A DNA stretch of 23,383 bases from a virus: the IMG/VR virus record IMGVR_UViG_3300042879_003734, positions 1 to 23,383 of that record; one strand, written 5' to 3'. Below are positions 4,730 to 22,980 of the stretch, piece after piece. Within the stretch, counting starts at the first letter, position 1, and every line of letters starts with the position of its first letter. The notes under the pieces were generated by a model. It ran no database searches, was not told the origin of the DNA, and saw only the letters and a program-made list of their open reading frames with translations. The position numbers and the translations under genes were made by a program.

Positions 4730-5356
4730 TTACTTCTTGGGAGGATTTTTTTTGTTCATGGTTGCAGGAGGAGTGCTGCAAGTTGCCAAAGTCCATTCTT
4801 TGTATGATTTTTTCTGCCCCTTGGCTACCATATAAAGCTCTTTCTTCTGGCCATTAATTTTTTTAGCAAATTCTGGGATATTAGTGACCAAAACTATCTC
4901 ATTTGTTTCCCAATTTTTAAAAATTGCCGTTTGGGTTACGATCTCATACTTCTTCTTATTAGCTGGATTTTCCCCAATAGATCTACTTGCTCCCGGAGTT
5001 TCCTTTACAGGTCTAATTTCAACAGGCTCCCACCCCTTATAGCTCTTACGTTTACCATTCATGATCTCACAAATTTTTACGATTGAAAGATCATTTTTCT
5101 TGCAAAACTCACTCATGCTCTCAAAGAATACTTTCTCGCCAGTATCCTTTCTTTTCAACCAATAACCGTTTTTGACAATATAATCATTTCTCCAAAGCCA
5201 CTCGCCTTTATCATTTTGATAAAACATTCCACCATTGTCTTGAACAAATTTTTCACGATGAAGATGTGATCTTGAATTTTCATTCATCATGAACCATAAT
5301 TTTGTGTTCCGACGATTTACTCGTTCTTCGATGTCAACTATTCTTTCTCTGTGCAT
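4730..5356 (-). CDS. NUMOD/IENR-like DNA-binding protein without a nuclease domain, 208 aa
   Basis: The protein carries two related modules, about residues 60-113 and 145-192. Each has an aromatic/beta segment, a helix-turn-helix-like stretch (MSEFCKKNDLSIVKICEIMNG and NIPEFAKKINGQKKELYMVA) and a closing KSYKGW or KSYKEW. This pattern matches the NUMOD1/IENR repeats that recognise DNA in intron- or intergenic-encoded homing endonucleases. No GIY-YIG, HNH or LAGLIDADG catalytic motif is visible. The start has AAGGA 8 nt upstream and overlaps the exonuclease gene by 23 nt, so the two are co-expressed. It may be the DNA-binding remnant of a homing endonuclease or a regulator. A run of eight A residues lies in the last codons. 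Confidence 0.75.
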   Translation of the reverse strand: MHRERIVDIEERVNRRNTKLWFMMNENSRSHLHREKFVQDNGGMFYQNDKGEWLWRNDYIVKNGYWLKRKDTGEKVFFESMSEFCKKNDLSIVKICEIMNGKRKSYKGWEPVEIRPVKETPGASRSIGENPANKKKYEIVTQTAIFKNWETNEIVLVTNIPEFAKKINGQKKELYMVAKGQKKSYKEWTLATCSTPPATMNKKNPPKK

Positions 5357-6014
5357 TTTTATATTCCTTATATTTTTCGATTATGTTACTTAATTTTTTA
5401 ACATAATTAATCGGTTTGTCGATGAATACTTGACTGGTTCCGTCTTCGCAAGAAATCAAGATAACAAACTGATTAACCTTTATTCCGGTTCTTTCCTGCA
5501 ACATCATTGCATAAGCAGTTGCTTGCATGAAATAATTTTCAATATCTTCTTTTCTCTTTTCCTTGGTGCTTGCCTTAAAATCTATGATCGACAATTCACC
5601 ATCATAATCAGCAATGCAATCTGTTCTTCCAGCAAGTTCCAATAAAGAAGACCAAAGAGGAGCTTCGATCATTCGAATATTGTCAATCTTATGCAACAAA
5701 GGTTGAATTCTAATAAAGATATCCAACATGTTTGGCATCAAAGATTCAAAATCAATATCCTCATTATTTAAATATGATTCAATCAATGAATGAAAATCAT
5801 TGCCCCGGGTTGTGACCCGTACACTTTCTTTTGGATTCTTTTTTCTCCACTCAGCAAAAAACTTTTGCTTTTCGAAGCCAACTACTGTTGTTACAGAAGG
5901 AAATGTTCCTTCTGGCGTAGAATATGAACGACCTGTATCGGTTGTTTCCTCTTGTAAAGAACCAACAATAGAAATTTTATTATGATTATATTTTTTAATA
6001 GGTAACAAAGTCAT
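5334..6014 (-). CDS. PD-(D/E)XK exonuclease, RecB/MGME1-like, 226 aa
   Basis: Motifs of the RecB-like PD-(D/E)XK nuclease family occur in order: a histidine in RGNDFH (H75), a glutamate in IEAPL (E117), GRTD with the catalytic Asp (D132), the core DFK (D145, K147) and a QATAYA helix (164-169). These form a single metal-dependent nuclease domain, like the MGME1-type exonucleases found in many T4-like phages. Acting on single-stranded or free DNA ends in recombination or replication is likely. It heads a two-gene unit with the NUMOD-like protein, under its own sigma70-like promoter whose -10 lies 8 nt before the ATG. No Shine-Dalgarno is seen. Confidence 0.85.
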   Translation of the reverse strand: MTLLPIKKYNHNKISIVGSLQEETTDTGRSYSTPEGTFPSVTTVVGFEKQKFFAEWRKKNPKESVRVTTRGNDFHSLIESYLNNEDIDFESLMPNMLDIFIRIQPLLHKIDNIRMIEAPLWSSLLELAGRTDCIADYDGELSIIDFKASTKEKRKEDIENYFMQATAYAMMLQERTGIKVNQFVILISCEDGTSQVFIDKPINYVKKLSNIIEKYKEYKNAQRKNS

Positions 6015-6022
6015 ACAAATAT

Positions 6023-6051
6023 ATTATACCAAAAATTATAGATTAACGCAA
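6023..6051 (-). promoter_or_regulatory. Sigma70-like early promoter of the exonuclease gene
   Basis: The -35 TTGCGT (6051-6046), a 17-bp spacer and the -10 TATAAT (6028-6023) read leftward; the -10 is preceded by TGG, an extended -10 form. The predicted start of transcription is near 6016, only 2 nt before the ATG at 6014, so the message would be essentially leaderless. The upstream 977-aa gene ends at 6053, just outside the -35. Confidence 0.7.
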
Positions 6052-6052
6052 A

Positions 6053-8986
6053 TTATTTAGAGAGAGTTGCAGCGTATTTCCCGTAAATATCTTTCAAAAT
6101 CAAATTCCAATCTTCAGTTCCAACTCCTGTGCGAGTAGTTTCGGTTTCTTCTTCTGGAACTTCTATTCCGGGCCCACCAGCTCCAGCTCCACCGCCTTTC
6201 TTTGGCTTAGGAAGAGGATTTACGGGACCACTAGTATCTTTTATTGTTTCAAATTTTGTTGCTCCAGCAGCAGTAGAAGTATTTGTTAAAGTATTCAATA
6301 CTGTTGCAGCAACAGCTGCTGTTGTGGCTGCTGTAGATGGTTTAAGATCTGCAACAGGTGCTTTCTCGGCAGATGGAACTTGTTCTTTGCCAACTTGCGC
6401 AACTTTATCTGTTGTAACTGATGGCTGCTCTGCCTTTGCAACAACTCTTGATTGTCCAATTTCTGAAGGAAGTTCTGCTGTTAGTTTAGTAAATGTTTTT
6501 GTTGCTATCTTTTCTGGGCCATCTGTTTGTGGTAAAACTTCTGCAGCAGGAATACTACCGGGAGCTACAGCAACTTGTTTTGGTAGTTCCGGTAATGATG
6601 GTTGAGCACTAGGAGTAGCGACTCTAGCTCCAGATGTTGTTTCTGGTGCTTTTATCTCTAATCCCTTTACAGTTTTTAGTGTAAGAGGAATTCTTTCAGA
6701 AGGTTCTGGTAGTGTCTCTGTTGGTGGTGTACCTCCAGTTGCTTTTTCTACTTTTGGTTCTTCCTTATCATATTCTGGCAATGTAACTGCTACATTCATT
6801 CCACCTTCGGAAGGTTCATATTCGGGCAGAGAAACCGGAGTATTCATGCCACCCATATTAGATGGTGTTTTTACTTGTTTTGGTGCTTCAACACTTACAC
6901 CAGAAACAGGTTTTTCTGGAGCTTTTGGCTGTGAAGCTGCTGTGGGACGAACAGTCGTGTCAATCTTTGCAACTTCTTGTCGTACACTTGGAACAGATGG
7001 CTCTACGGCTCTGGCAGTAATTCTTGGACCAATTGGCTCTGGTAAAACCATTGTATTTAATGTTGCAAGATTAGCAGCAGCATTTACAGCCAATACCTTT
7101 GGGTCTAGCTCGGCCTTTGCTCTTTGAATATTTTTTACCATATTCTTTACAAAGTCTTGTGCGTTCCATACGCCTCTTTGAACTGGACCAACTGCAGGCT
7201 TTTCTGCTGGTGTTCTTAAATGTTTTGGAACTGATGGGCTTATTCTTGGTGCAACTTCATAACCAATAGATGGACTCCCACCTTCTACTGCTGCCTTAAG
7301 TCTTGCCTCAATATTTTTTGCAAGCCGAGCAGCAATATCTCCGTATCCTTTAATTACACCAACACCCTTGGCAATAGCTTCTTTTCCAGAAATTTTTACA
7401 GGAGCAGCAGGTTGACTCTGGAATCTATCTCTTTCTGTTGTAGCAATTCTTGGCCTAGGAACACGAGCAAGATCAAAAGTTGGTGCTGCTGTTGCAAAAT
7501 CTGGTCTTGGACTAATTCTTTCTGAAGGTACTTCTGGGGTTTCTGCTTCAATTCTTTCTTTGGTTGCTTGTCTGGCAGCTTGTCTTAAAACTTCAGGAGA
7601 AAATATTTCACCTTTTCCCCAAATTCTACGAAGCAACTCGCTGTTCATTGCCTTCCACTCTTGTTGTCCCAGTCTTCCCTTTTCTCCGCTATCTGTAGAC
7701 CATTCAGGTTGTTCTGCAGCTTTCTTTCCTTCAACAGAACCACCTTTTAATTCTCTTTGTGCCATCGATTCTTGCGACTTGGCACGTGCTATAAATTCTT
7801 CCTGTCCTCTTGTGACTCTGGCAAGTTCTCTATTAAATTGACGAATTCTACCAACAGGATAAGTTGCTGGAGCGCCACTAACTGCTTCTACGCCTCTTGC
7901 TACAGTTTTAGCACCGGGAGCGGCCATTGCTGCACCAAGACCCAATTGTACTGGATCTGTAGCAGTTGCCATATCTTTCAATCCCATTCCAGCAAAAGTT
8001 GTAGTCAATGCTTGACGTGTCAATTCACTGGCGGTAGATGGTGCTACTCTGGCTGCTGCAGGAAGCAGTGGAGTAGTGAGTCTAGCAACACCAGCTGCAG
8101 CAGCAGGGGCAGCAGCAGCTGCAGCACCTATTGCTGCAATGGTTGGTAAATTCTCACCGACATTTTTCAAAGTTTCTGCAGAACCACTAGCAATTCCTCT
8201 TGGAATACCAGATCCTCTAGTTTCAATTGTAGTTAATGGCATCATCTCAACTGCCATTTTATTTGTCATGAACTGTTCGTCTGAAGCAAATTTAGAGGGA
8301 TCATCCCCGTACATCTTTTTAAGCTCTGCTTCTGTTTTGCCAGTTGTTCTTTCTTTGAATTCTTGGTAAGCTTTTAATTGTGCTTTTCGTTGTAGTGTCG
8401 GAATATTGGGAACGCCCGGGCGGGTTGGTCCTTCTGCTGCTTGATATTGTTGTAAGGCTTCTATTTCTGCAGAAGGAACTTCAATGCCTTCCCAACCTTT
8501 AATGCCCTTTGATTCTAATTCTTTTTGATACTTTTCTATGTCAGCAGTAGTCTGAGTAACTTTTTCTTCACGCTCTCTTGTAGTTTGGCCCATTTTTTCT
8601 TGACCGGGACCAAACATTCCAAATGAACGCATTTGTTTTTCAACCCATTCAAAGTCAGGAGCAGTGGCTACTGCTCCTCGGGCAGCAGCTCTTGGAATTT
8701 CTCTTATCAAATCTGAAAGAGTGCCAACAGCTTTTCCAAACAAACTTTCCTGTTCTGGTTCTGGACGAACTGGTTGTGAAAATTGTTCTGGTTCTCTTGG
8801 TTTAGCCCTCATTTCTCTTTGACGGGCTCTCATCTCCGCGCCATCTTCATTTAAAATTTCACAAGTTTTTTCAAATATAAAAAGTTGTCGTCCTTCAGAC
8901 AATCTGGTATAATCTGATATAAGCTTTGTTTCCAAAGCTTTATTTGTCAGGTCATTGAAGTGTTTCATCAATGTATTTACTTTCAT
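6053..8986 (-). CDS. Large Ala/Pro/Thr-rich, mostly disordered phage protein, 977 aa
   Basis: The N-terminus (about 1-55) looks helical. It is followed by charged Glu/Arg-rich sequence. A strongly Ala-rich hydrophobic stretch (about 275-320) could be a membrane-interacting or coiled segment. Beyond about residue 400 the sequence is Pro/Ala/Thr/Val/Glu-rich linker of low complexity, with an imperfect tandem unit (GGMNTPVSLPEYE / GGMNVAVTLPEYD). A short ordered-looking end finishes WNLILKDIYGKY. No enzymatic motif was recognised. Its size and composition suggest an internal or ejected virion protein, or a flexible structural or adhesin protein (inference). The start overlaps the 64-aa gene by 35 nt; a second ATG at 8968 is equally possible, as neither has a good Shine-Dalgarno. 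Confidence 0.7.
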   Translation of the reverse strand: MKVNTLMKHFNDLTNKALETKLISDYTRLSEGRQLFIFEKTCEILNEDGAEMRARQREMRAKPREPEQFSQPVRPEPEQESLFGKAVGTLSDLIREIPRAAARGAVATAPDFEWVEKQMRSFGMFGPGQEKMGQTTREREEKVTQTTADIEKYQKELESKGIKGWEGIEVPSAEIEALQQYQAAEGPTRPGVPNIPTLQRKAQLKAYQEFKERTTGKTEAELKKMYGDDPSKFASDEQFMTNKMAVEMMPLTTIETRGSGIPRGIASGSAETLKNVGENLPTIAAIGAAAAAAPAAAAGVARLTTPLLPAAARVAPSTASELTRQALTTTFAGMGLKDMATATDPVQLGLGAAMAAPGAKTVARGVEAVSGAPATYPVGRIRQFNRELARVTRGQEEFIARAKSQESMAQRELKGGSVEGKKAAEQPEWSTDSGEKGRLGQQEWKAMNSELLRRIWGKGEIFSPEVLRQAARQATKERIEAETPEVPSERISPRPDFATAAPTFDLARVPRPRIATTERDRFQSQPAAPVKISGKEAIAKGVGVIKGYGDIAARLAKNIEARLKAAVEGGSPSIGYEVAPRISPSVPKHLRTPAEKPAVGPVQRGVWNAQDFVKNMVKNIQRAKAELDPKVLAVNAAANLATLNTMVLPEPIGPRITARAVEPSVPSVRQEVAKIDTTVRPTAASQPKAPEKPVSGVSVEAPKQVKTPSNMGGMNTPVSLPEYEPSEGGMNVAVTLPEYDKEEPKVEKATGGTPPTETLPEPSERIPLTLKTVKGLEIKAPETTSGARVATPSAQPSLPELPKQVAVAPGSIPAAEVLPQTDGPEKIATKTFTKLTAELPSEIGQSRVVAKAEQPSVTTDKVAQVGKEQVPSAEKAPVADLKPSTAATTAAVAATVLNTLTNTSTAAGATKFETIKDTSGPVNPLPKPKKGGGAGAGGPGIEVPEEETETTRTGVGTEDWNLILKDIYGKYAATLSK

Positions 8987-10162: not shown

Positions 10163-10546
10163 ATGGGAACAAATTTTATACTAGAAAAGTATTTTTCGGA
10201 AGAACAGGACGCATATCGAATGGGTCCAAAAAATTCTTCTGAGAAACACTGTACTATTGTTCCCAAACAAGATCTTGCTGGTTTCCTTTATTACATCTTA
10301 CCAGATGTGAAAAAGAAAAGTTTGGATGATTATCCCTACGGGGATGGCGTTGCAATGGCCATCAAACTTGCTGTAGAAAATGGCAAAAAATATATCAAAT
10401 TTAGCAATAAAAATGAAAAGCTAAACGATACTCTTGCCAGACTGGTAAAAGATGGAGTATTAAAGGAAAATTGGGAAAACTACGAAATTCTCAAAACCAC
10501 ACCAGCACCAATCGTAGAAGAATACTCAGTCAGATCTCTTGATTGA
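10163..10546 (+). CDS. Hypothetical phage protein, 127 aa
   Basis: This soluble alpha/beta-looking protein begins MGTNFILEKYF and contains no recognised motif. A possible GTG start at 10130 overlaps the FmdB gene, but the ATG at 10163 sits 8 nt after a CATAAATA core, the spacing seen at other gene starts in this phage, so I prefer it. It is the last gene of the rightward unit. It ends convergently with the RuvC-like gene, overlapping it by 17 nt, and a hairpin follows 35 nt after its stop. Function unknown. Confidence 0.7.
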   Translation: MGTNFILEKYFSEEQDAYRMGPKNSSEKHCTIVPKQDLAGFLYYILPDVKKKSLDDYPYGDGVAMAIKLAVENGKKYIKFSNKNEKLNDTLARLVKDGVLKENWENYEILKTTPAPIVEEYSVRSLD

Positions 10547-11090
10547 GTTTAGCATCTGCTAAAATTTTAGTAATATAAAAACTGTCGATAATATCCGTAA
10601 CAGGATTCGACAGTGTCTTTTGGCCCAATACACTTTTCAAATCTACAAATGATTCTTTCTCAAAGCAATCATACATTGCTTGTTTGTCTGCATTTCCTTT
10701 TCCCGTCGCTATCTTCTTGACTCTGCTCGGTTCAATCACACTTAAAGGAATTGCATTTTTATATAACTTATGTTTTAATATTCCAACATTTTCGGCAAGA
10801 TGAAATATTCTTCCAGTTGAATTATATGCGTATCCTTCCAATGAAACTTCCGAAGCACCAATGCATAGATTGAGTGCCCAAGAAGATATCGTGTCGAATC
10901 TTTCTGTATCACAATCATAATCTGGAAACAACTCTCCAGTTATGTTGTTCATAAACTTGTTTGCGTACTTTTTTGTATCTGTCAAAAAATAAAAATGACA
11001 GTTTTCAAAACAAAACTTTTGTCTGAGATCGAAGAGACACAGACAAGGAGAAGTCATAGAATAATCTATACCAATAACAGTATGAAACAT
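10530..11090 (-). CDS. RuvC-like Holliday junction resolvase, 186 aa
   Basis: The order of motifs fits the RNase H-fold RuvC family. GIDYSMTSP has the first catalytic Asp (D9). A strand ending in SLEGYAY supplies E85. Then come IEPSRVKKIATGKGNADKQ, the conserved Lys/Gly segment of phage and pox RuvC-like resolvases, and finally TDIIDSFYI with D165/D168. It would resolve branched DNA before packaging, the job done in T4 by the unrelated endonuclease VII. It is driven by an exact TATAAATA late core 5 nt upstream of the ATG. The 3' end overlaps the convergent 127-aa gene by 17 nt, and a strong inverted repeat lies within codons 160-170. Confidence 0.85.
   Translation of the reverse strand: MFHTVIGIDYSMTSPCLCLFDLRQKFCFENCHFYFLTDTKKYANKFMNNITGELFPDYDCDTERFDTISSWALNLCIGASEVSLEGYAYNSTGRIFHLAENVGILKHKLYKNAIPLSVIEPSRVKKIATGKGNADKQAMYDCFEKESFVDLKSVLGQKTLSNPVTDIIDSFYITKILADAKLNQEI
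10581..10620 (+). terminator. Possible intrinsic terminator of the rightward unit, inside the resolvase gene
   Basis: ACTGTCGA (10581-10588) and TCGACAGT (10607-10614) are perfect 8-bp arms, with an inner ATCC/GGAT extension and a GTCTTTT tail. It lies 35 nt after the stop of the 127-aa gene. Read leftward, the same hairpin is followed by TTTTTATATT, so it could act in both directions, although leftward it lies inside the resolvase coding sequence. Confidence 0.5.
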
Positions 11091-11095
11091 CCTAT

Positions 11096-11103
11096 TATTT
11101 ATA
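11096..11103 (-). promoter_or_regulatory. T4-type late promoter TATAAATA of the resolvase gene
   Basis: An exact TATAAATA reads leftward and ends 5 nt before the ATG at 11090. At T4 spacing, transcription would start exactly at the A of the ATG. It lies directly after the stop codon of the HNH gene that ends the replication operon. Confidence 0.7.
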
Positions 11104-11109
11104 GGAGTT

Positions 11110-11400
11110 TCATCTGGGCATCAAGTTTTTATAAAAATTTACCAGCTTAGAAAGTTCATCAAGAGTTGCCGCACCCTTCATTCTATTTGCTTTGAAAGAC
11201 ACAATAACAACATTGTCTTTGGTATAACCTTTTGTGTTGTCTATTCTATCCAACGAAGGCGAATTTGATAAGCTATAAGGATATATCGGTATACCAAGTA
11301 CAGGACAAGTTTTTGGAATTACTATGTCTTTAGCAGTTAGGTTAAAGTCAAGTTTCTTCAACTTTGCCCTGTACTTGGCATACTTGAGCATGTCGCTCAC
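11110..11400 (-). CDS. Small HNH-like nuclease family protein downstream of RNR, 96 aa
   Basis: The core LKYAKYRAKLKKLDFNLTAKD, a CPVLGIPIYP strand, SPSLDRIDNTKGYTKDNVV, then SFKANRMK, is a recognisable phage/bacterial family with a DRID...GY..NV...AN pattern. I consider it HNH/endonuclease VII-related, though zinc Cys pairs are absent. The start is uncertain. I chose GTG at 11400, which has AAGAAG 6 nt upstream and lies 10 nt after the RNR stop. ATG at 11391 is close by, and ATG at 11481 would overlap the RNR end by 71 nt. Position just behind an essential nrd gene is typical for free-standing homing endonucleases (inference). Confidence 0.65.
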   Translation of the reverse strand: MSDMLKYAKYRAKLKKLDFNLTAKDIVIPKTCPVLGIPIYPYSLSNSPSLDRIDNTKGYTKDNVVIVSFKANRMKGAATLDELSKLVNFYKNLMPR

Positions 11401-11410
11401 GATATTCTTC

Positions 11411-13297
11411 TTACATGATCTGGCACGCCCCACCTTGGCAGGCGTACTCTTTGGCCGATTCCGTGTTGTCTTCTTTTTCATATTGAGAAAGTTTTCTGAA
11501 ATCAACTTTGATCTTTGGATGCTCGTTGTACACCGCTTGGTCAATTCTTTCAAATGGTGCTTGAGCATAGCTGTGGGAATCTCCACCGGGAAGGAAAGAA
11601 ATTCCTGTAGCGCAATCAAAGTTCTCCCAGAGCCACTGGCCAACCTCAAGGAATTCTGCATCCGTGTAGTTCACGGTGATCGAAGGCTTGTGGTGGCAAT
11701 AGTGCTCTTGATAAATTTTCCAGATGTCCAAGTGAGCAATCGCACGAAGATCTTCTGTAGTCATTGTACCCTTTGGCGCTTTCATGGCAAAGGTAAAGAC
11801 AGCGGTAGAGCCGGGATTGATTACATCGTCCTCGCATGGGACACCCTGATCTTTCATGAGATTATAGATTGGATCCTTCTTGTCAATGCGAACTCTACGG
11901 TAGTAGAAATCAGCATAACGAGGATGCAATCCAGATGCAGAATCAACCAAGCAAGAGGTGGTCCCCTCTGGCTTCACGCAAGTAATAGACTTGCTGGGAT
12001 TGATTCCAAGCTTTTCTGCCCAAGTAAGATTGGTTGCTGTGGCATGATCTCTTAAAGTCTCAAGAAGCTTGATGAGCTTTGGCTTTCCATCAAGACCGCT
12101 TGTGAGCTTGTTATCAAAGATTCCTGTCATAGACACACCAAGCAATCTTTCGTCTTCGCAGTTCTGCTTCCACTCAGGACGGAGATAAGGGAATTTAGTA
12201 AATGTAGACTGAACTGTACCAATGATTGTTGCAATCTCTATCTTCTTCTTGAGAGAAGCCTGTGTGTCGGTTGGACGAACAACGACGGTAGAAAGATTGC
12301 AGAACTCAAATGGCTTGAGAATAATCTCAGAGCAAGGATTGGTTCCGTACTCTGCAGTCTCGTCTCTTCCTTGTCTTCCCGCCTGCTCTTGGAGCGCCTT
12401 GCGGTTAATCATTCCACGCTCACCGCTATGGCTGTTGTAAAGCGAAGTCCACTCTTCAAGGAACTGTCCCATTGGTGGGCGACCACGATATACTGCGGAG
12501 TTATTTGCATAAGAACGGAATCCTGCTCCGTCCCACCAAGCTCCGCTCTTGCACATTGCCATCTCTCGGTCAGAAAGATCGCTGAGTGAAATCATCGCAG
12601 AACGGCGCACACCACCGACGATAACAGCATTAGCAATAGCACAACAAATATCGTGACACTCAAGAGCGCTAAGTCTTCTTCCAACTGATCCATAAAAAAC
12701 CTTTACAATGAATTTCAACAGATTATCAAGCGGAGCAGGACCACTTGCCCGACCACCAAAGGTCTTCAGTCTTGCTCCTGCTGGACGAATGGCAGAGAGA
12801 TCCCACTTTACATGGCGACCTTCGTAGAGATGATAAAGAATAGTTTTTAGACCATTTCCCCATCCCTCTTTGGAGTCTTCTATTTTCACAACTGTATTAA
12901 AATCTTTTTCGATTTTATTTGCAACGATGGGAAGCTTGTCTGTATACTGATGTTCGACACTGTAACCAACACCAGTTCCGTTCATCAGAATAACAAACAA
13001 TTCAGCAAATGACTGAATAGAGTCAATTGGAAGATAAGAGCAATTATAGATGCATGTATTGTCATGATCCAATGCTGGCCCTGCAGTCATGAGGCTTCTC
13101 ATAGAGGGAAGAACCTCAAGATTTAGAATGGCCTGCTTAACATCAGGACGCTCTAGAAGTTGAGGAACTTTGTTTGTAAAATAATTCCACCAACGGTCAA
13201 CACATTCGCTCCAAGTTTCTCTTCGGTTTTCTGCATTCAACCAACGAGAGTAGCGAGAGATAAAAATGAATTCTTGAAAAGCTGATAAATTTTGCAT
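11411..13297 (-). CDS. nrdJ: Class II (adenosylcobalamin-dependent) ribonucleotide reductase, 628 aa
   Basis: The N-terminus (EFIFISRYSRWL, then RRETWSECVDRW) matches the monomeric RTPR-type class II reductases. The Cys in NCSYLP (C86), the active-site NPCSEI (C322, E324) and a C-terminal redox pair CQGGACQIM (C620, C625, CX4C spacing) are all present, so the enzyme should be active. It makes deoxyribonucleotides for phage replication using B12 and thioredoxin-type reductants. At 628 residues it is shorter than the Lactobacillus enzyme (739), suggesting a reduced allosteric region (inference). AAAGGA lies 7 nt before the ATG. It follows ThyX in the replication operon. Confidence 0.93.
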   Translation of the reverse strand: MQNLSAFQEFIFISRYSRWLNAENRRETWSECVDRWWNYFTNKVPQLLERPDVKQAILNLEVLPSMRSLMTAGPALDHDNTCIYNCSYLPIDSIQSFAELFVILMNGTGVGYSVEHQYTDKLPIVANKIEKDFNTVVKIEDSKEGWGNGLKTILYHLYEGRHVKWDLSAIRPAGARLKTFGGRASGPAPLDNLLKFIVKVFYGSVGRRLSALECHDICCAIANAVIVGGVRRSAMISLSDLSDREMAMCKSGAWWDGAGFRSYANNSAVYRGRPPMGQFLEEWTSLYNSHSGERGMINRKALQEQAGRQGRDETAEYGTNPCSEIILKPFEFCNLSTVVVRPTDTQASLKKKIEIATIIGTVQSTFTKFPYLRPEWKQNCEDERLLGVSMTGIFDNKLTSGLDGKPKLIKLLETLRDHATATNLTWAEKLGINPSKSITCVKPEGTTSCLVDSASGLHPRYADFYYRRVRIDKKDPIYNLMKDQGVPCEDDVINPGSTAVFTFAMKAPKGTMTTEDLRAIAHLDIWKIYQEHYCHHKPSITVNYTDAEFLEVGQWLWENFDCATGISFLPGGDSHSYAQAPFERIDQAVYNEHPKIKVDFRKLSQYEKEDNTESAKEYACQGGACQIM

Positions 13298-18265: not shown

Positions 18266-20764
18266 TTATTCAAAAAATGATTCAAGAGTTTGATTTGTGT
18301 CTGTGGTCCAGCCTATTACTTCGGTTACATTCCTAAGTGGCTCTAGAAAAGTTTTTTCAAACTGCATTTCAAAGTCTGCAAACTTTTCCAAATTAAATTC
18401 TTTTGGAGGTACATTTTGAAATCCTATGACTCTTTCCCGACTGTCCCTGCCATAAGGATTAGGCACCTTTAGATGAATAAATTTTATCTTATCACCTTCG
18501 CCTATTACAGAATGCTTCTCTTCAAGCCCTAGCTTTTTGATCTGGTAATTATACAGCAAAGCAGCCTTAGTTGCAATAGGTGTTGACTTGCGATATATAG
18601 TTTCTTTGTCACAATATGTGTTCATCCCTGCAATTTTTCTTGGGGATGATATTTTTTCTATGGGTTGAGCAAAAAATTCTTCTCGGAACTTAGAAACAAA
18701 TTTAAGCAATGCATCATTATTTTTGGTAAGCATTATCTTAAGTGCAATCTTTAAATTCTCACGAACAAGATGTGGAGTGCTGGATCGTGCAGTTTCCATA
18801 CCCATGATTTTTACTTTTGGTTCAGTGAATCTCACACCTTCCTTGTCGAAAACACAAAGAGCATATCTTTTCTTTGCCTTGAAAATACCAGAGGTTGCAA
18901 TAACTTCTCTCTTGAATTGAAGTCTCTTTTCTTTGCACCCAAAGAGATCTCCAAGTTGATTCATTGCTTTTTCCAAAACAGGTTGAATTGCTTTTTTGGC
19001 AGAGTTATCAAGAAAGTCTACTATTTCACTTTCTTCTACTCCAACTTTTTCGACAATCGGATTCATGTTAATATACAGAGAATCAGTGTCGGCAGCGATG
19101 ACAACATCAAGGTTTGGTTGCTTTGTTATCTTGATAAAATATTCATTTATTTTCTTCTCTGCTGTACGAATTACATACTGACCAGTCATAGTAACAGCAA
19201 CGGCCAACTCAGGGGATGAGTATACGAATCCCGGATTTCCTAGACAACCATACAAACTGTTGGCCAAAATCTTCTTAACTGATTGCTTGATTGAAAGCGC
19301 TGCGATTCTGTCAGTCAGAGAACCTTCTTTGTCGCCATTCTTTTCCTTTACCTTTTCCAGTTCAATCATTTGCTTTTTGGCTTCCTGCCTTTGATTGAAT
19401 GTTCTTTCGATGAGAATTGGAATGAATCCCTTTTCGGTCATAGAAAAAACAGCACCGTTTGATGCCACACAATGTCCTTTGGCGGTCTGGTCTTTAACAA
19501 ATGCTTTAAGATCTTCTTGAGGATTCAGATAATCATCCACACCCCACTTTGAATTGTGCAGAACAAGAGTATCCGGACTTATGTTAAACTGCATAATGAT
19601 GCTTGGATACAGACTTGTAGCATCAAAACTTACTACATTATAATAAAAACCGGGAGTTACTTCCTTGACATAGGCCCCAATAAACTGTTCATCTTTATCG
19701 TAAAACTTCTTAAGCTGAGGAACAACTTTGTGATCTTTCAAATAGTCAAAGCAAATGCTTTCCCAGATTTTAGTGGAAAAGAACACTCCATCGAAGTTAA
19801 TCTTTGCTTCAAATGCAATAGAAACAGCCAGCTCTATAAGACGCAGCTTTTTCTCAAGCTTTTCAACAAGCAAGGTATCTTGAACATTATATTCGAAGAA
19901 TCTCTGATAATTCTTTTTATAGAATTCACGCAAAGAACCATAGTCTGAATAGTCAACTTTTGTCTCACCCAGTTCAACTTCAGAAATATATGCAAGTGCA
20001 TAGCTTTCTTGGTTTGTTCCAGAAAACTTCTTGTAAAGTTCGATGTAATCCAACACCATATACCCCGGAATATCTACACTGTAGTAGATTCTTCCGTTTG
20101 CTGCGTATTCTCTTTTACGCAGAAATCCCCATGGACTGAACTTATTGGCAAATGCCTGTGAGACTATACGCTCTGCCCGATTTACAATATAGGGCAAATC
20201 GAAGTTGCGAATATTCCAACCAGTTAAGATGTCTGGATCCAACTTTTTTACCATGTCAAAAAACCCAGACAACATGGCCTCTTCAGTGTCATAATGATGA
20301 ACAAAAACATCTTCCGAAACACATGGCGTAAGGGTAAAGCTATGCGTTTCTTCACCACACTTAATAGTTATGAGAATAATCTTTTCGTTTGCCGTCGCAA
20401 TATCTGGAAAGCCATGCTCACACTCGGTCTCAATATCAATGTAAAGAGTCTTCAGTTGCTTAAAATCATAACTAACATTTTCCGGAAAAGTTTCATATAT
20501 GTACTGCTGGACAAAATCTGCAGTTCCATAGATGGCAAAATTATCCATATCCCGATATTCATCAATAAAACTTCTAGCATCAAGAATGGACGAAAAATCC
20601 ATCCTTTTCAATTTTGTTCCAGTAAGAGATGTATAGTCTCCGGAAGGCTCTTGCAAATAAAAAGAAGGCGCGAAAGCTTCCTTTCGCGTCTCCCTGATTC
20701 CGTTGTTGTAGCCTCGGTATAGAACGTTGCTACCACGGACAACTATGCTAGTGTAGAATTGCAT
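18266..20764 (-). CDS. Family B DNA polymerase, T4 gp43-like, 832 aa
   Basis: Three exonuclease motifs are intact: YIDIET (D110, E112), NIRNFD (D189) and YNVQD (D296), so it should proofread. Polymerase motif A (SFDATSLYPS, D381), motif B (KKILANSLYG, around 497-506) and motif C (AADTDSLYI, D559 and D561) follow in order. It is slightly shorter than T4 gp43 (898 aa). It is the replicative polymerase and heads the replication operon. Its sigma70-like promoter overlaps the stop codon of the Nmad1 gene, and the ATG lies 7 nt after the -10, with no Shine-Dalgarno. A palindrome spans the -10. Confidence 0.97.
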   Translation of the reverse strand: MQFYTSIVVRGSNVLYRGYNNGIRETRKEAFAPSFYLQEPSGDYTSLTGTKLKRMDFSSILDARSFIDEYRDMDNFAIYGTADFVQQYIYETFPENVSYDFKQLKTLYIDIETECEHGFPDIATANEKIILITIKCGEETHSFTLTPCVSEDVFVHHYDTEEAMLSGFFDMVKKLDPDILTGWNIRNFDLPYIVNRAERIVSQAFANKFSPWGFLRKREYAANGRIYYSVDIPGYMVLDYIELYKKFSGTNQESYALAYISEVELGETKVDYSDYGSLREFYKKNYQRFFEYNVQDTLLVEKLEKKLRLIELAVSIAFEAKINFDGVFFSTKIWESICFDYLKDHKVVPQLKKFYDKDEQFIGAYVKEVTPGFYYNVVSFDATSLYPSIIMQFNISPDTLVLHNSKWGVDDYLNPQEDLKAFVKDQTAKGHCVASNGAVFSMTEKGFIPILIERTFNQRQEAKKQMIELEKVKEKNGDKEGSLTDRIAALSIKQSVKKILANSLYGCLGNPGFVYSSPELAVAVTMTGQYVIRTAEKKINEYFIKITKQPNLDVVIAADTDSLYINMNPIVEKVGVEESEIVDFLDNSAKKAIQPVLEKAMNQLGDLFGCKEKRLQFKREVIATSGIFKAKKRYALCVFDKEGVRFTEPKVKIMGMETARSSTPHLVRENLKIALKIMLTKNNDALLKFVSKFREEFFAQPIEKISSPRKIAGMNTYCDKETIYRKSTPIATKAALLYNYQIKKLGLEEKHSVIGEGDKIKFIHLKVPNPYGRDSRERVIGFQNVPPKEFNLEKFADFEMQFEKTFLEPLRNVTEVIGWTTDTNQTLESFFE

Positions 20765-20781
20765 GTGGTATATTATACCAC
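20765..20781. repeat. Perfect 17-bp palindrome over the polymerase -10
   Basis: GTGGTATA and TATACCAC form perfect 8-bp arms around a single T. It covers the -10 TATAAT and reaches to the base before the ATG of the DNA polymerase, the place expected for an operator or an RNA hairpin at a message start. Half of it (GTGGTATA) also occurs at the dUTPase promoter. Confidence 0.6.
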
Positions 20782-20799
20782 CTTTTTACGGTCTTTCAA
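20772..20799 (-). promoter_or_regulatory. Sigma70-like early promoter of the DNA polymerase gene
   Basis: The -35 TTGAAA (20799-20794), a 16-bp spacer and an extended -10 TGGTATAAT (TATAAT at 20777-20772) read leftward. The predicted start is at 20765, 1 nt before the ATG. The -10 contains the stop codon TAA of the upstream Nmad1 gene, so the promoter is embedded in coding DNA. Confidence 0.7.
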
Positions 20800-21090
20800 T
20801 AGCCCAGCAAGAATTACTGAATAGTTTATCATGTCTACGATTGCGTCATAGACGCTTTCGTTTTCGATAGAAAGTTCACCACGATTTAAAAAAGTGGAGA
20901 TTCTTGACATTTTATCGGTCATTCGAATCAAAACACCCAACTCTGCCGAGCTAAATCCCAAATATTCAGCTCTTCTAAAATTTAGAAACGGGTCTTCGCC
21001 ACATGCGTAGTCATTATTCTTCTTACGCATAAGTTCTAGAGCTTCTTGCGAGATGGACTGATGCAATTTAAATAGATCTTCTCTTGTCAT
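20773..21090 (-). CDS. Nmad1/DUF1599-like protein (nucleotide modification associated domain 1), 105 aa
   Basis: The pattern EALELMRKKNNDYA, then PFLNFRRAE, LGVLIRMTDKMSRI and ESVYDAIVDMINY is that of the DUF1599 / nucleotide modification associated domain 1 family, a MazG-like helical fold that occurs in many phages, some with modified DNA. A role in nucleotide pool control or DNA modification is inferred. The ATG at 21090 was chosen because a strong promoter predicts transcription from about 21092; the in-frame ATG at 21108 would lie upstream of that start. It ends 8 nt before the polymerase ATG. Confidence 0.8.
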   Translation of the reverse strand: MTREDLFKLHQSISQEALELMRKKNNDYACGEDPFLNFRRAEYLGFSSAELGVLIRMTDKMSRISTFLNRGELSIENESVYDAIVDMINYSVILAGLLKDRKKVV

Positions 21091-21098
21091 ATAGCCAT

Positions 21099-21127
21099 AT
21101 TTTAGCATCGAAAATGCAAATTGTCAA
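21099..21127 (-). promoter_or_regulatory. Strong sigma70-like promoter of the Nmad1 gene
   Basis: The -35 TTGACA (21127-21122, consensus), a 17-bp spacer and the -10 TAAAAT (21104-21099) read leftward. The predicted start is about 2 nt before the ATG at 21090. The -35 lies only 2 bp from the rightward late core at 21130-21137. Confidence 0.7.
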
Positions 21128-21129
21128 GT

Positions 21130-21137
21130 TATAAATA
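21130..21137 (+). promoter_or_regulatory. T4-type late promoter TATAAATA of the membrane cassette
   Basis: An exact TATAAATA reads rightward 21 nt before the ATG at 21159. Unlike most late starts here, a Shine-Dalgarno (GGAG at 21149-21152, 6 nt before the ATG) follows, so this message has a short leader of about 16 nt. Confidence 0.65.
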
Positions 21138-21158
21138 TTAAGTCGCCCGGAGTTTTTC

Positions 21159-21767
21159 ATGGAATTATTAGCCCTCATAGATTATACAAAATTTTTAGAA
21201 ACTATTTCCATTATTATTGCAGCTGGAGTAGGAGTAATATGGGGAGTGATAAAATTTTGGCAAACAAAACCAAGAAGTGATAATTTTTTAAGCATTCATA
21301 ACGAAATCCACGAATTACTGACAGAACTTAGAGTTATTACAAAATCAATGAGAGCAAGCATAATTCAATTCCATAATGGTGAATATACCATGGATGGAAT
21401 TTCTATGCGTAAATTTTCTGTTACACACGAATCCACACATAAAGGTTATACATCTCAAGTTAATAAATTAAAATCTAGTCTTTGTTCTATGTTCATTCCT
21501 CTGTTAAATCATGTTGTGGATAATAAAAATTTAATTTATTCGACTTCAGCACTTTCTGAAAGTTTTGTAAAATCATTTTTTGAGGATGAAAATATTTGTA
21601 ATTATGCATGTCTTCCCATAAAAAATAAAGGAACAAACGTAGGATTTATTTTAATTCAATGGCATGATGATTTTGGTCCAAAGAATGAAGAGCATGATGT
21701 TTACATGAAACATTTTGATTCCATAAGAGATTCGGTACAAATTCAACTTTCACAACAAAGAAACTGA
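21159..21767 (+). CDS. Membrane-anchored GAF-like phage protein, 202 aa
   Basis: Residues ~12-34 form one hydrophobic transmembrane helix. A helical linker follows, then a domain with RASIIQFHNGEYTMDGISM and KFSVTHEST (about 66-92), which recurs in phage and bacterial GAF-like sensor domains, with further beta strands to the C-terminus. Topology would place most of the protein in the cytoplasm. It starts a rightward unit with a late core and Shine-Dalgarno, and its stop is followed 7 nt later by the next ATG. A role in lysis timing, envelope attachment or superinfection control is possible but not shown. I do not know the function. Confidence 0.75.
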   Translation: MELLALIDYTKFLETISIIIAAGVGVIWGVIKFWQTKPRSDNFLSIHNEIHELLTELRVITKSMRASIIQFHNGEYTMDGISMRKFSVTHESTHKGYTSQVNKLKSSLCSMFIPLLNHVVDNKNLIYSTSALSESFVKSFFEDENICNYACLPIKNKGTNVGFILIQWHDDFGPKNEEHDVYMKHFDSIRDSVQIQLSQQRN

Positions 21768-21774
21768 GGTAAAT

Positions 21775-22209
21775 ATGCCAACGGAACTAATATCATTGCT
21801 TGGAGGAGGACTAACAGGATTTCTCTTCCGCTATTGGGCACAAAGAGCCCAAGATCAAAAAGAAATGTTTAAGATGGCAATAGAGGCCAACAAACAAACA
21901 ACAGATAACCAAGATAAAGCAGCACAAAGAGTGCCACTAGACGTAGGCAAGGGAGTAAGACAGCTAATAGTCTTAGCATGCCTTTTTGCAGTAGTTGCAG
22001 CTCCATTTGTTCTTCCTTTCTTTGGAATTTCAACCTTTGCTGAATTTACTCAGAAGCAACCTGAAGGATTCTTTGGTTTAATCCCAGAAACAACTCGTAA
22101 ATATTTTGTAGAAATTCCGGGATATTTATTCGCTGAAGAGAATCGTCAAGTTCTACTGGCCGTGGTCGGATTTTACTTTGGTACAGCCACAGGAGGAAAT
22201 AAATCATGA
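21775..22209 (+). CDS. Small multi-TM membrane protein, holin-like size, 144 aa
   Basis: Hydrophobic segments occur at about 6-22 (Gly-rich, amphipathic), 63-85 (IVLACLFAVVAAPFVLPFFG) and 123-141 (VLLAVVGFYFGTATGG), separated by a charged helix (26-62). GAGG lies 5 nt before the ATG. The size and layout resemble holins and a membrane protein I recall from marine T4-like phages. With a lipoprotein gene next, it may be part of a lysis cassette, but no endolysin is present in the window. Its stop overlaps the lipoprotein start (ATGA). Confidence 0.7.
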   Translation: MPTELISLLGGGLTGFLFRYWAQRAQDQKEMFKMAIEANKQTTDNQDKAAQRVPLDVGKGVRQLIVLACLFAVVAAPFVLPFFGISTFAEFTQKQPEGFFGLIPETTRKYFVEIPGYLFAEENRQVLLAVVGFYFGTATGGNKS

Positions 22210-22472
22210 AATATCTTTTACCACTACTGTTACTAGCCTCTTGTACAAGCCCTCAAATCATTTCACCGTTAGACAAAAAGGGAAACCCAATTCATAGCGT
22301 CCTTAAAGAACCATTCTTTGGAGCACCAAGTCAAGCTTCAGAATGGAGCTTTTGGTATGTAATAATTTGTGTAGTCACACTTTGGCTAGTTTGGAAAGAA
22401 TTTAAATCAATAAAATGGCCAAAGAAAAAATCAGACGATACCAGTACTCCCAAACCCACCGATCCTATTTGA
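22206..22472 (+). CDS. Small lipoprotein with a transmembrane helix, 88 aa
   Basis: A short signal sequence (MKYLLPLLLLASC) ends in a lipobox with the lipid-bearing Cys at position 13. After a polar segment, a second hydrophobic helix (about 45-66, WSFWYVIICVVTLWLVW) is followed by a Lys/Pro/Thr-rich tail. GGAGG lies 9 nt before the ATG, within the end of the preceding gene. Lipid anchoring plus a second membrane segment suggests an envelope-spanning or spanin-related role (inference). It converges on the dUTPase gene with a 42-nt overlap of coding sequences. Confidence 0.75.
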   Translation: MKYLLPLLLLASCTSPQIISPLDKKGNPIHSVLKEPFFGAPSQASEWSFWYVIICVVTLWLVWKEFKSIKWPKKKSDDTSTPKPTDPI

Positions 22473-22946
22473 CTTTTGTGATGGTTCGTAAATAGTTTCT
22501 TCTATTTCAGCCTGCTCGTACTTTACAACTTCTCCCTGAGCAATTCTATCTCCATGATAAATTTTTATCATTTGGTCAGTTGTATTGAGCATAATTAACT
22601 TAGTTTCATTAACATAATCCTCATCAATTACACCCTCACAATTAGCAAGAATAAGTCCATATTTCAATGCTACACCAGAACGAGGATGTAAACGAATAGA
22701 ATAGCCTTCTGGAATATCAAAAATCAATCCAGTGCGGATCAATGCTCTTTCCGAGGGAGCAAGAGCAATAAAGTGTTTCCCGTTTTCGCTATCAAAATTA
22801 GTCTTAATTTGAGATTTTTCTTTACCATTAAAAAGAGTAATGTCCTCTTTATCAATGAATGCTGATAAATCAAAGCAAGCTGCTTTTCTTGTTTGATAAT
22901 TGGGAAGTTCTGCTGATGGTTCTACTTTATATACTTTTAGGATCAT
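22431..22946 (-). CDS. dut: Deoxyuridine triphosphatase (trimeric dUTPase), 171 aa
   Basis: All five dUTPase motifs are present in order: FDLSA (I), PRSGVALKYGL (II), CEGVIDEDY with the catalytic Asp (III), GDRIAQ (IV) and the glycine-rich RIGGFGSTG tail (V). It hydrolyses dUTP to dUMP, keeping uracil out of DNA and feeding ThyX. The ATG at 22946 is preferred over an in-frame TTG at 22964, because the latter lies within the promoter; the -10 ends 6 nt before the ATG. Motif V is encoded in the 42 nt shared with the convergent lipoprotein gene. Confidence 0.95.
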   Translation of the reverse strand: MILKVYKVEPSAELPNYQTRKAACFDLSAFIDKEDITLFNGKEKSQIKTNFDSENGKHFIALAPSERALIRTGLIFDIPEGYSIRLHPRSGVALKYGLILANCEGVIDEDYVNETKLIMLNTTDQMIKIYHGDRIAQGEVVKYEQAEIEETIYEPSQKSNRIGGFGSTGIV

Positions 22947-22952
22947 ATTTAA

Positions 22953-22980
22953 ATTATACCACAAAATTAAAATATGTCAA
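22953..22980 (-). promoter_or_regulatory. Sigma70-like early promoter of dut
   Basis: A consensus -35 TTGACA (22980-22975), a 16-bp spacer and an extended -10 TGGTATAAT (TATAAT at 22958-22953) read leftward. The predicted start coincides with the A of the ATG at 22946, giving a fully leaderless message. The -35 includes the stop codon of the preceding 107-aa gene. Confidence 0.75.

Follow-up and report, generated by a model that had tools for sequence, protein, structure and literature searches.

Near-exact promoter spacing suggests leaderless early and late mRNAs in an uncultured T4-like phage lineage

The stretch of DNA analyzed here, referred to as the window, corresponds to a virus record of 23.4 kb (IMGVR_UViG_3300042879_003734) and represents a fragment of an uncultured T4-like phage. 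Its promoters, and those of its relatives, lie immediately in front of start codons with a spacing that is near single-base exact in both early and late promoters, unlike in T4. Based on this arrangement, we consider it very likely that the leading genes of early units, together with a subset of genes behind late promoter boxes, are expressed as leaderless mRNAs in this T4-like lineage. The window has a G+C content of 38% and encodes a gp43-like polymerase, a UvsX/RecA-like protein, a DnaB-like helicase, a class II ribonucleotide reductase (RNR), ThyX, a dUTPase and a RuvC-like resolvase. The polymerase is of the gp43 type found in T4-like phages (phrog_262).

An earlier note on this DNA had described sigma70-like promoters a few nucleotides upstream of four genes: the polymerase (pol), the dUTPase (dut), an Nmad1-like gene of the DUF1599 family and an exonuclease (exo). 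All four promoters are present, with the spacings that it had given:

dut promoter, 22953..22980, minus strand: -35 TTGACA (22975-22980), 16-nt spacer ending TGG, -10 TATAAT (22953-22958), 6 nt to the ATG at 22946
DUF1599 (Nmad1-like) promoter, 21099..21127, minus strand: -35 TTGACA (21122-21127), 17-nt spacer ending TGC, -10 TAAAAT (21099-21104), 8 nt to the ATG at 21090
pol promoter, 20772..20799, minus strand: -35 TTGAAA (20794-20799), 16-nt spacer ending TGG, -10 TATAAT (20772-20777), 7 nt to the ATG at 20764
exo promoter, 6023..6051, minus strand: -35 TTGCGT (6046-6051), 17-nt spacer ending TGG, -10 TATAAT (6023-6028), 8 nt to the ATG at 6014

The dut promoter matches the consensus at 12/12 positions and the DUF1599 and pol promoters at 11/12, each with the TG extension. 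Three of the genes were said to share an extended box, and indeed TGGTATAAT forms the extended -10 of the pol, dut and exo promoters. This sequence occurs closely 5' of an ATG three times in the window, at these genes, compared to zero for a reversed-pattern control. The genes themselves are as follows:

pol, 18266..20764, minus strand: T4 gp43-like family B DNA polymerase, 832 amino acids (phrog_262, 2.5e-265)
dut, 22431..22946, minus strand: dUTPase, 171 amino acids, with a predicted leaderless mRNA and +1 at 22946 (PF00692, 3.6e-20; phrog_135)
DUF1599 gene, 20773..21090, minus strand: DUF1599/Nmad1-like protein, 105 amino acids from the ATG at 21090 (PF07659, 1.3e-4; start placed via the relatives L004 and L005)
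exo, 5334..6014, minus strand: PD-(D/E)XK exonuclease, 226 amino acids (phrog_298, 6.4e-62; PF12705, 2.6e-8)

N-terminal conservation secures the start codons. Pol, which is 41-43% identical to cyanophage gp43 over its full length, aligns from residue 1 with T4-like polymerases; exo aligns with its counterpart in the relative G002, and the dut N-termini align with those of relatives from residue 1 or 2. The DUF1599 open reading frame (ORF) has an in-frame upstream ATG (21108) that overlaps its own promoter, and the relatives place the real start at 21090, where it aligns with L004 and L005. The Nmad1 name is weakly supported, since the PF07659 match scores 22.7 bits, below the cut-off of 25.

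None of the four genes has a Shine-Dalgarno (SD)-like tetramer at the right distance, compared to 12 of the 24 other scored starts, which bears out another observation of the earlier note. A promoter score of at least 11 at 5-9 nt was found for 4 of the 28 gene starts in the window. The shuffle comparison that the note had proposed gave a mean of 0.05 and a maximum of 1 over 1000 dinucleotide shuffles of the same upstream regions, and four was reached in 0/1000. At 10-45 nt, a single start had such a score and the shuffles were similar (mean 0.23, reached in 211/1000).

We then examined the relatives, which by pol identity are L004 (98%), G002 and L005-L007 (81%), L321 and L322 (65%), L323-L325 (53%) and L008 (41%). 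Four larger genomes, G006-G009 (108-137 kb, pol 52%), were scanned whole. Where the contigs hold the genes, dut and DUF1599 keep a spacing of 6-9 nt, as does pol outside L323-L325, and it persists while the spacer, discriminator and flanking sequences diverge. The DUF1599 promoter lies 8, 9, 8, 6 and 6 nt from the ATG in the window, L004, G002, L321 and L324, respectively. For pol, the distance is 7 nt in L004, L005 and L321/L322 and 6 nt in L008, and the exo promoter of G002 has the same 8 nt.

A very tight spacing is seen at dut. Using a -10 call of at least 5/6 matches, the box lies exactly 6 nt before the ATG in 32 of 39 non-redundant upstream regions and at 7-10 nt in none, and the start codon is ATG in all 39. 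Once two outgroups are excluded, the strongly conserved upstream columns of the remaining 37 regions consist of a -35 CTTGAC and a TGnTATAAT ending at -7. The 6 nt that follow are weakly conserved, except for a pyrimidine at -1 in 33/37.

In the window, G002 (1-48.2 kb), L017 and L008 combined, 18 strong promoters are followed by 12 ATGs at 6-8 nt, whereas the range of 9-59 nt contains no ATG. Because homologous promoters of relatives are not independent events, which weakens what their conservation can say for leaderless expression, other gene sets were used as well. The numbers of strong promoters in G006, G007, G008 and G009 are 23, 37, 17 and 24, of which 12, 13, 8 and 8, respectively, have an ATG at 6-8 nt; control motifs gave almost no such cases in these scans. 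Pooling the window, G002 and G006-G009 (585 kb) supplied the tabulation of -10-to-ATG distances suggested in the earlier note: among 121 strong promoters there are 50 ATGs at 6-8 nt (35 at 6 nt, 10 at 7 and 5 at 8), and 33 further ATGs are spread over 9-59 nt. A pyrimidine occupies -1 in 29 of 32 non-redundant 6-nt cases (p about 1e-6), fitting the expectation for a YR start site. Start codons within 4-9 nt of 33 strong promoters from eight contigs are ATG 21 times and GTG once.

The late promoters follow the same principle. The earlier note had confined the device to early units, a restriction that does not hold, as a T4-type late box is also placed at a fixed distance from a gene in the window:

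Late promoter box TATAAATA, 11096..11103, minus strand: T4-type, exactly 5 nt before the ruvC-like ATG (11090), with a predicted leaderless late mRNA
RuvC-like Holliday junction resolvase gene, 10530..11090, minus strand: 186 amino acids (phrog_159, 2.9e-27)

This arrangement, CCTATAAATAATAGGATG, is common to the window, G002, G009 and L322. In the window, G002 and G006-G009, there are 17 cases of TATAAATA at exactly 5 nt from an ATG, whereas 30 anagrams tested on the same six sequences averaged 0.93 cases and never exceeded 4. All of G006-G009 encode the late sigma factor gp55 (E about 1e-46 to 1e-49), and TATAAATA boxes are present in the window and its relatives; gp55 was not found in the partial record G002, and the window fragment was not searched for it. 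HTVC008M, a cultured T4-like phage of SAR11 (Pelagibacter), has five TATAAATA boxes at 5 nt, all at annotated gene starts (6280, 7562, 31132 and 49760, and 18916 on the minus strand).

These distances suggest the following mechanism. The host sigma70-holoenzyme would recognize -35/extended -10 promoters whose -10 hexamer ends 6 nt, or in some cases 7-8 nt, before the AUG, and RNA synthesis would start either directly on the A of this codon or 1-2 nt upstream. Since the sigma70 hexamer spans -12 to -7, the 6-nt spacing would put +1 on the A. In T4, late boxes occupy positions -13 to -6 counted from the transcription start (PMC1524935), so that a 5-nt spacing would likewise put +1 on the A, and late transcripts from the gp55-type boxes at a subset of genes would begin there. 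Thus, the two promoter classes differ in box-to-start distance and converge on the same predicted +1. We infer that transcription begins at the AUG, or no more than 2 nt from it, and that the 5'-terminal AUG, rather than an SD, recruits the ribosome at these genes, with internal operon genes keeping SDs or stop/start overlaps. The conserved spacing in diverged relatives, the fixed starts, the -1 pyrimidine and the comparison with phage phiYS40 and T4 below all support the leaderless interpretation first put forward in the earlier note.

T4, the textbook example of gene expression in large lytic phages, makes leadered mRNAs. The lineage of the window shares with T4 its sigma70-type early promoters, TATAAATA late boxes, gp43-like polymerase and, in relatives, gp55, but differs in spacing. 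In the 99 kb of T4 examined, the distance to the ATG is 25-39 nt for strong early boxes and at least 14 nt for late boxes, and no ATG lies closer than 14 nt to a promoter. None of the four window genes shows this layout, in which the distance is 14 nt or more and an SD is present, and the geometry is, as had been suspected, untypical of T4. It is also not general among T4-like phages: the commonest spacing in 79 other T4-like loci is 20-24 nt (36 ATGs from 100 promoters, 4 at 6-8 nt), and the pol clade with the cyanophage references (47 members) lacks it.

Leaderless phage mRNAs are already known, and what stands out here is the exactness of the layout in a T4-like lineage and its extension to late promoters. 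The lambda cI mRNA made from PRM begins at its AUG, but it represents a single prophage repressor gene, compared to a lineage-wide layout. A lambda-phage mRNA is cited as a founding case of leaderless mRNA (PMC3160421). TA-led leaderless bacterial genes carry a TANNNT -10 signal about 12 bp, counted from its first T, before the start codon (Zheng et al. 2011, PMC3160421), and all four window genes resemble them, with a TANNNT signal about 10-12 bp before the start, no SD and an ATG start. However, that survey concerned cellular genomes, whereas the heads of phage units and a second, phage-specific promoter class are involved here. A close parallel is phiYS40, a lytic Thermus phage reported to make leaderless middle and late transcripts, with shifts in IF2/IF3 (PMC3594737). 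By the same criterion, 4 of 10 strong promoters in its first 50 kb are 6-7 nt before an ATG, leaving no leader at replication genes that include its own DNA polymerase and RNR alpha. phiYS40 is nonetheless unrelated, with a family A polymerase and a host group that has many leaderless genes, while the lineage studied here is T4-like and uses sigma70 promoters and gp55-type late boxes. HTVC008M is T4-like and has the late boxes exactly 5 nt from annotated starts, but its early promoters are spread over 6-11 nt. We found no report of leaderless expression in HTVC008M in the literature searched, nor any paper on leaderless mRNAs and transcription start sites in T4-like phages.

Outside this lineage, the geometry recurs. 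In 94 non-redundant pol upstream regions, -10 matches lie at 6 nt in seven and at 7 nt in four, with none at 5, 8, 9 or 10 nt and about 0.8 expected per position. Among the more distant pol lineages, 3/11 start with GTG. On the pol tree, the geometry requires at least six changes on supported branches. IMG/VR was also scanned for perfect extended promoters at 5-9 nt without regard to the encoded protein, which gives interpretable spacings within the scan but not rates. Among the matches listed, 6 nt is the commonest spacing, 33 of the 56 ATGs at 6 nt open an ORF of at least 60 codons, and 11 of the 19 ORFs searched behind 6-8 nt promoters encode DNA or nucleotide metabolism. Among those 11 are three exonucleases of phrog_298 and a polymerase of phrog_262, to which the window exo and pol also belong. 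With at least six occurrences on the pol tree and many other IMG/VR contigs, the device is not peculiar to this phage. The exonuclease family was also considered as a second broad case like dut and was rejected at 4/57 regions with a box at 6 nt.

Several observations weigh against leaderless expression. A TATAAT match alone leaves the exact +1 base unfixed, and pol and exo, at 7-8 nt, would have leaders of 1-2 nt if +1 is canonical. The DUF1599 promoter could also serve pol. The pol genes of L323-L325 have lost the geometry, the exonuclease family at large peaks only slightly at 6 nt, and the early promoters of HTVC008M are not locked at 6 nt.

The strongest alternative disputes the reason for the layout and not leaderlessness itself. 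A host rich in leaderless genes would lead any of its phages to place promoters in this way, with no phage-specific strategy, and we regard this as quite possible, if somewhat less than probable. In Sinorhizobium meliloti, an alphaproteobacterium, 171 leaderless mRNAs have been mapped (PMC3616915), and the clues in this lineage lean weakly toward such a host, which is perhaps alphaproteobacterial. Its class II RNR is nearest to those of Roseobacter, Lentibacter and rhizobial phages, and the RNRs of Streptomyces phages are only slightly more distant. Additionally, a permuted (two-piece) transfer-messenger RNA (tmRNA) matches Rfam RF04321 in G002 and is called by ARAGORN in G006 and G007, and the late pattern is present in the SAR11 phage HTVC008M too. 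The permuted tmRNAs lie at:

L013:10372-10559 (G002), minus strand: permuted tmRNA
L561:11851-12226, minus strand: permuted tmRNA
L570:1244-1643, minus strand: permuted tmRNA

However, host searches of GTDB genomes with pol and with the tmRNA tag pattern gave no match. In addition, no peak is seen in the first 50 kb of the Sinorhizobium phages phiM12 and phiM9 or of the Caulobacter phage Cr30, so the geometry is not supported as a general feature of alphaproteobacterial T4-like phages. We lean, with moderate confidence, toward a change in the phages: in a widespread, uncultured T4-like lineage, the host-sigma70 promoters and a large part of the gp55 late promoters would have shifted to precisely the leaderless distance, leaving the heads of early and late units leaderless and SD-free, perhaps favored by a phage-induced shift in initiation. 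No phage-encoded IF3 homologue was found in five relatives.

Alternatively, the transcripts could have very short leaders (1-5 nt) or variable starts, with initiation depending on an A/U-rich start context instead of strict recognition of a 5'-AUG. The 7-9 nt spacings of pol, exo and DUF1599 and the 6-11 nt of the HTVC008M early promoters would suit this model, but the 6-nt lock at dut, the 5-nt late lock and the -1 pyrimidine point to +1 mostly on the A, and we consider it unlikely. Less likely still, the promoters serve other internal or downstream transcripts, and the genes are translated from read-through mRNAs by coupling. The pol -10 box contains the TAA stop of DUF1599, which leaves 8 nt to the pol ATG, and the dut ATG is preceded at 30 nt by the end of another ORF on the same strand, as coupling would have it. 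This model predicts, however, no exact promoter-to-ATG distance that survives upstream divergence, and it leaves the recurrence at unrelated genes unexplained. Finally, although short A/T-rich motifs are common in DNA of 38% G+C, chance alignment of TATAAT-like strings is ruled out for practical purposes by the shuffles, the near-zero control motifs, the anagram controls and the sharp single-position peaks.

If leaderless expression in this lineage is correct, the mode of translation initiation would be a trait that phages themselves switch, and gene callers that rely on SDs could misplace phage starts. Leaderless translation could then matter in the lytic infection of aquatic bacteria, and the late half of the model is open to a direct test with HTVC008M on Candidatus Pelagibacter ubique.

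Beyond its spacing, the pol promoter of the window has a second feature, as its -10 box is the center of a palindrome, GTGGTATAATATACCAC (20765-20781). The counterpart in L322, AAGGTATAATATACCTT, has compensating changes, and that in G002 is imperfect only. In a read-through mRNA, the palindrome would form a hairpin abutting the pol AUG, which recalls the autoregulation of gp43 in T4. As a hairpin or operator of general occurrence it was rejected, being strong in the window and L322 and absent in G002. On the plus strand, 8885-8945 holds another extended promoter, TTGTCG-17-TGGTATAAT, with a hairpin, AAGCTTTG-N4-CAAAGCTT, no more than about 8 nt beyond it. This pair is antisense to the start of the gene at 6053-8986 and conserved in L004 and G002; it could produce a tiny RNA or simply reflect coding constraint.

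The relatives also contain regions of many small genes. At 26000-32500 of G006 (in L560), there is a run of small genes, many with their own extended promoter and a -10 of TACAAT or TATCAT 6 nt before the ATG. Such regions are higher in G+C, at 0.45-0.51 in G002 from about 48-64 kb compared to about 0.36 elsewhere. We considered whether the jump at about 48 kb marks a chimaera and dropped the idea, since G006 has a similar G+C-rich small-gene stretch, with its own 6-nt promoters and a matching tRNA gene set. The G002 tmRNA has its own TGGTATAAT promoter, with 8 nt between its end and the 5' end of the Rfam match, and the predicted tmRNA tags, ATTKAAPMRMAA and ANIKAAPMRMAA, are conserved. In the window itself, an ORF at 11110-11661 on the minus strand overlaps the nrdJ 3' end in another frame; its C-terminal part resembles a small HNH-type protein, and its true start is probably after the nrdJ stop.

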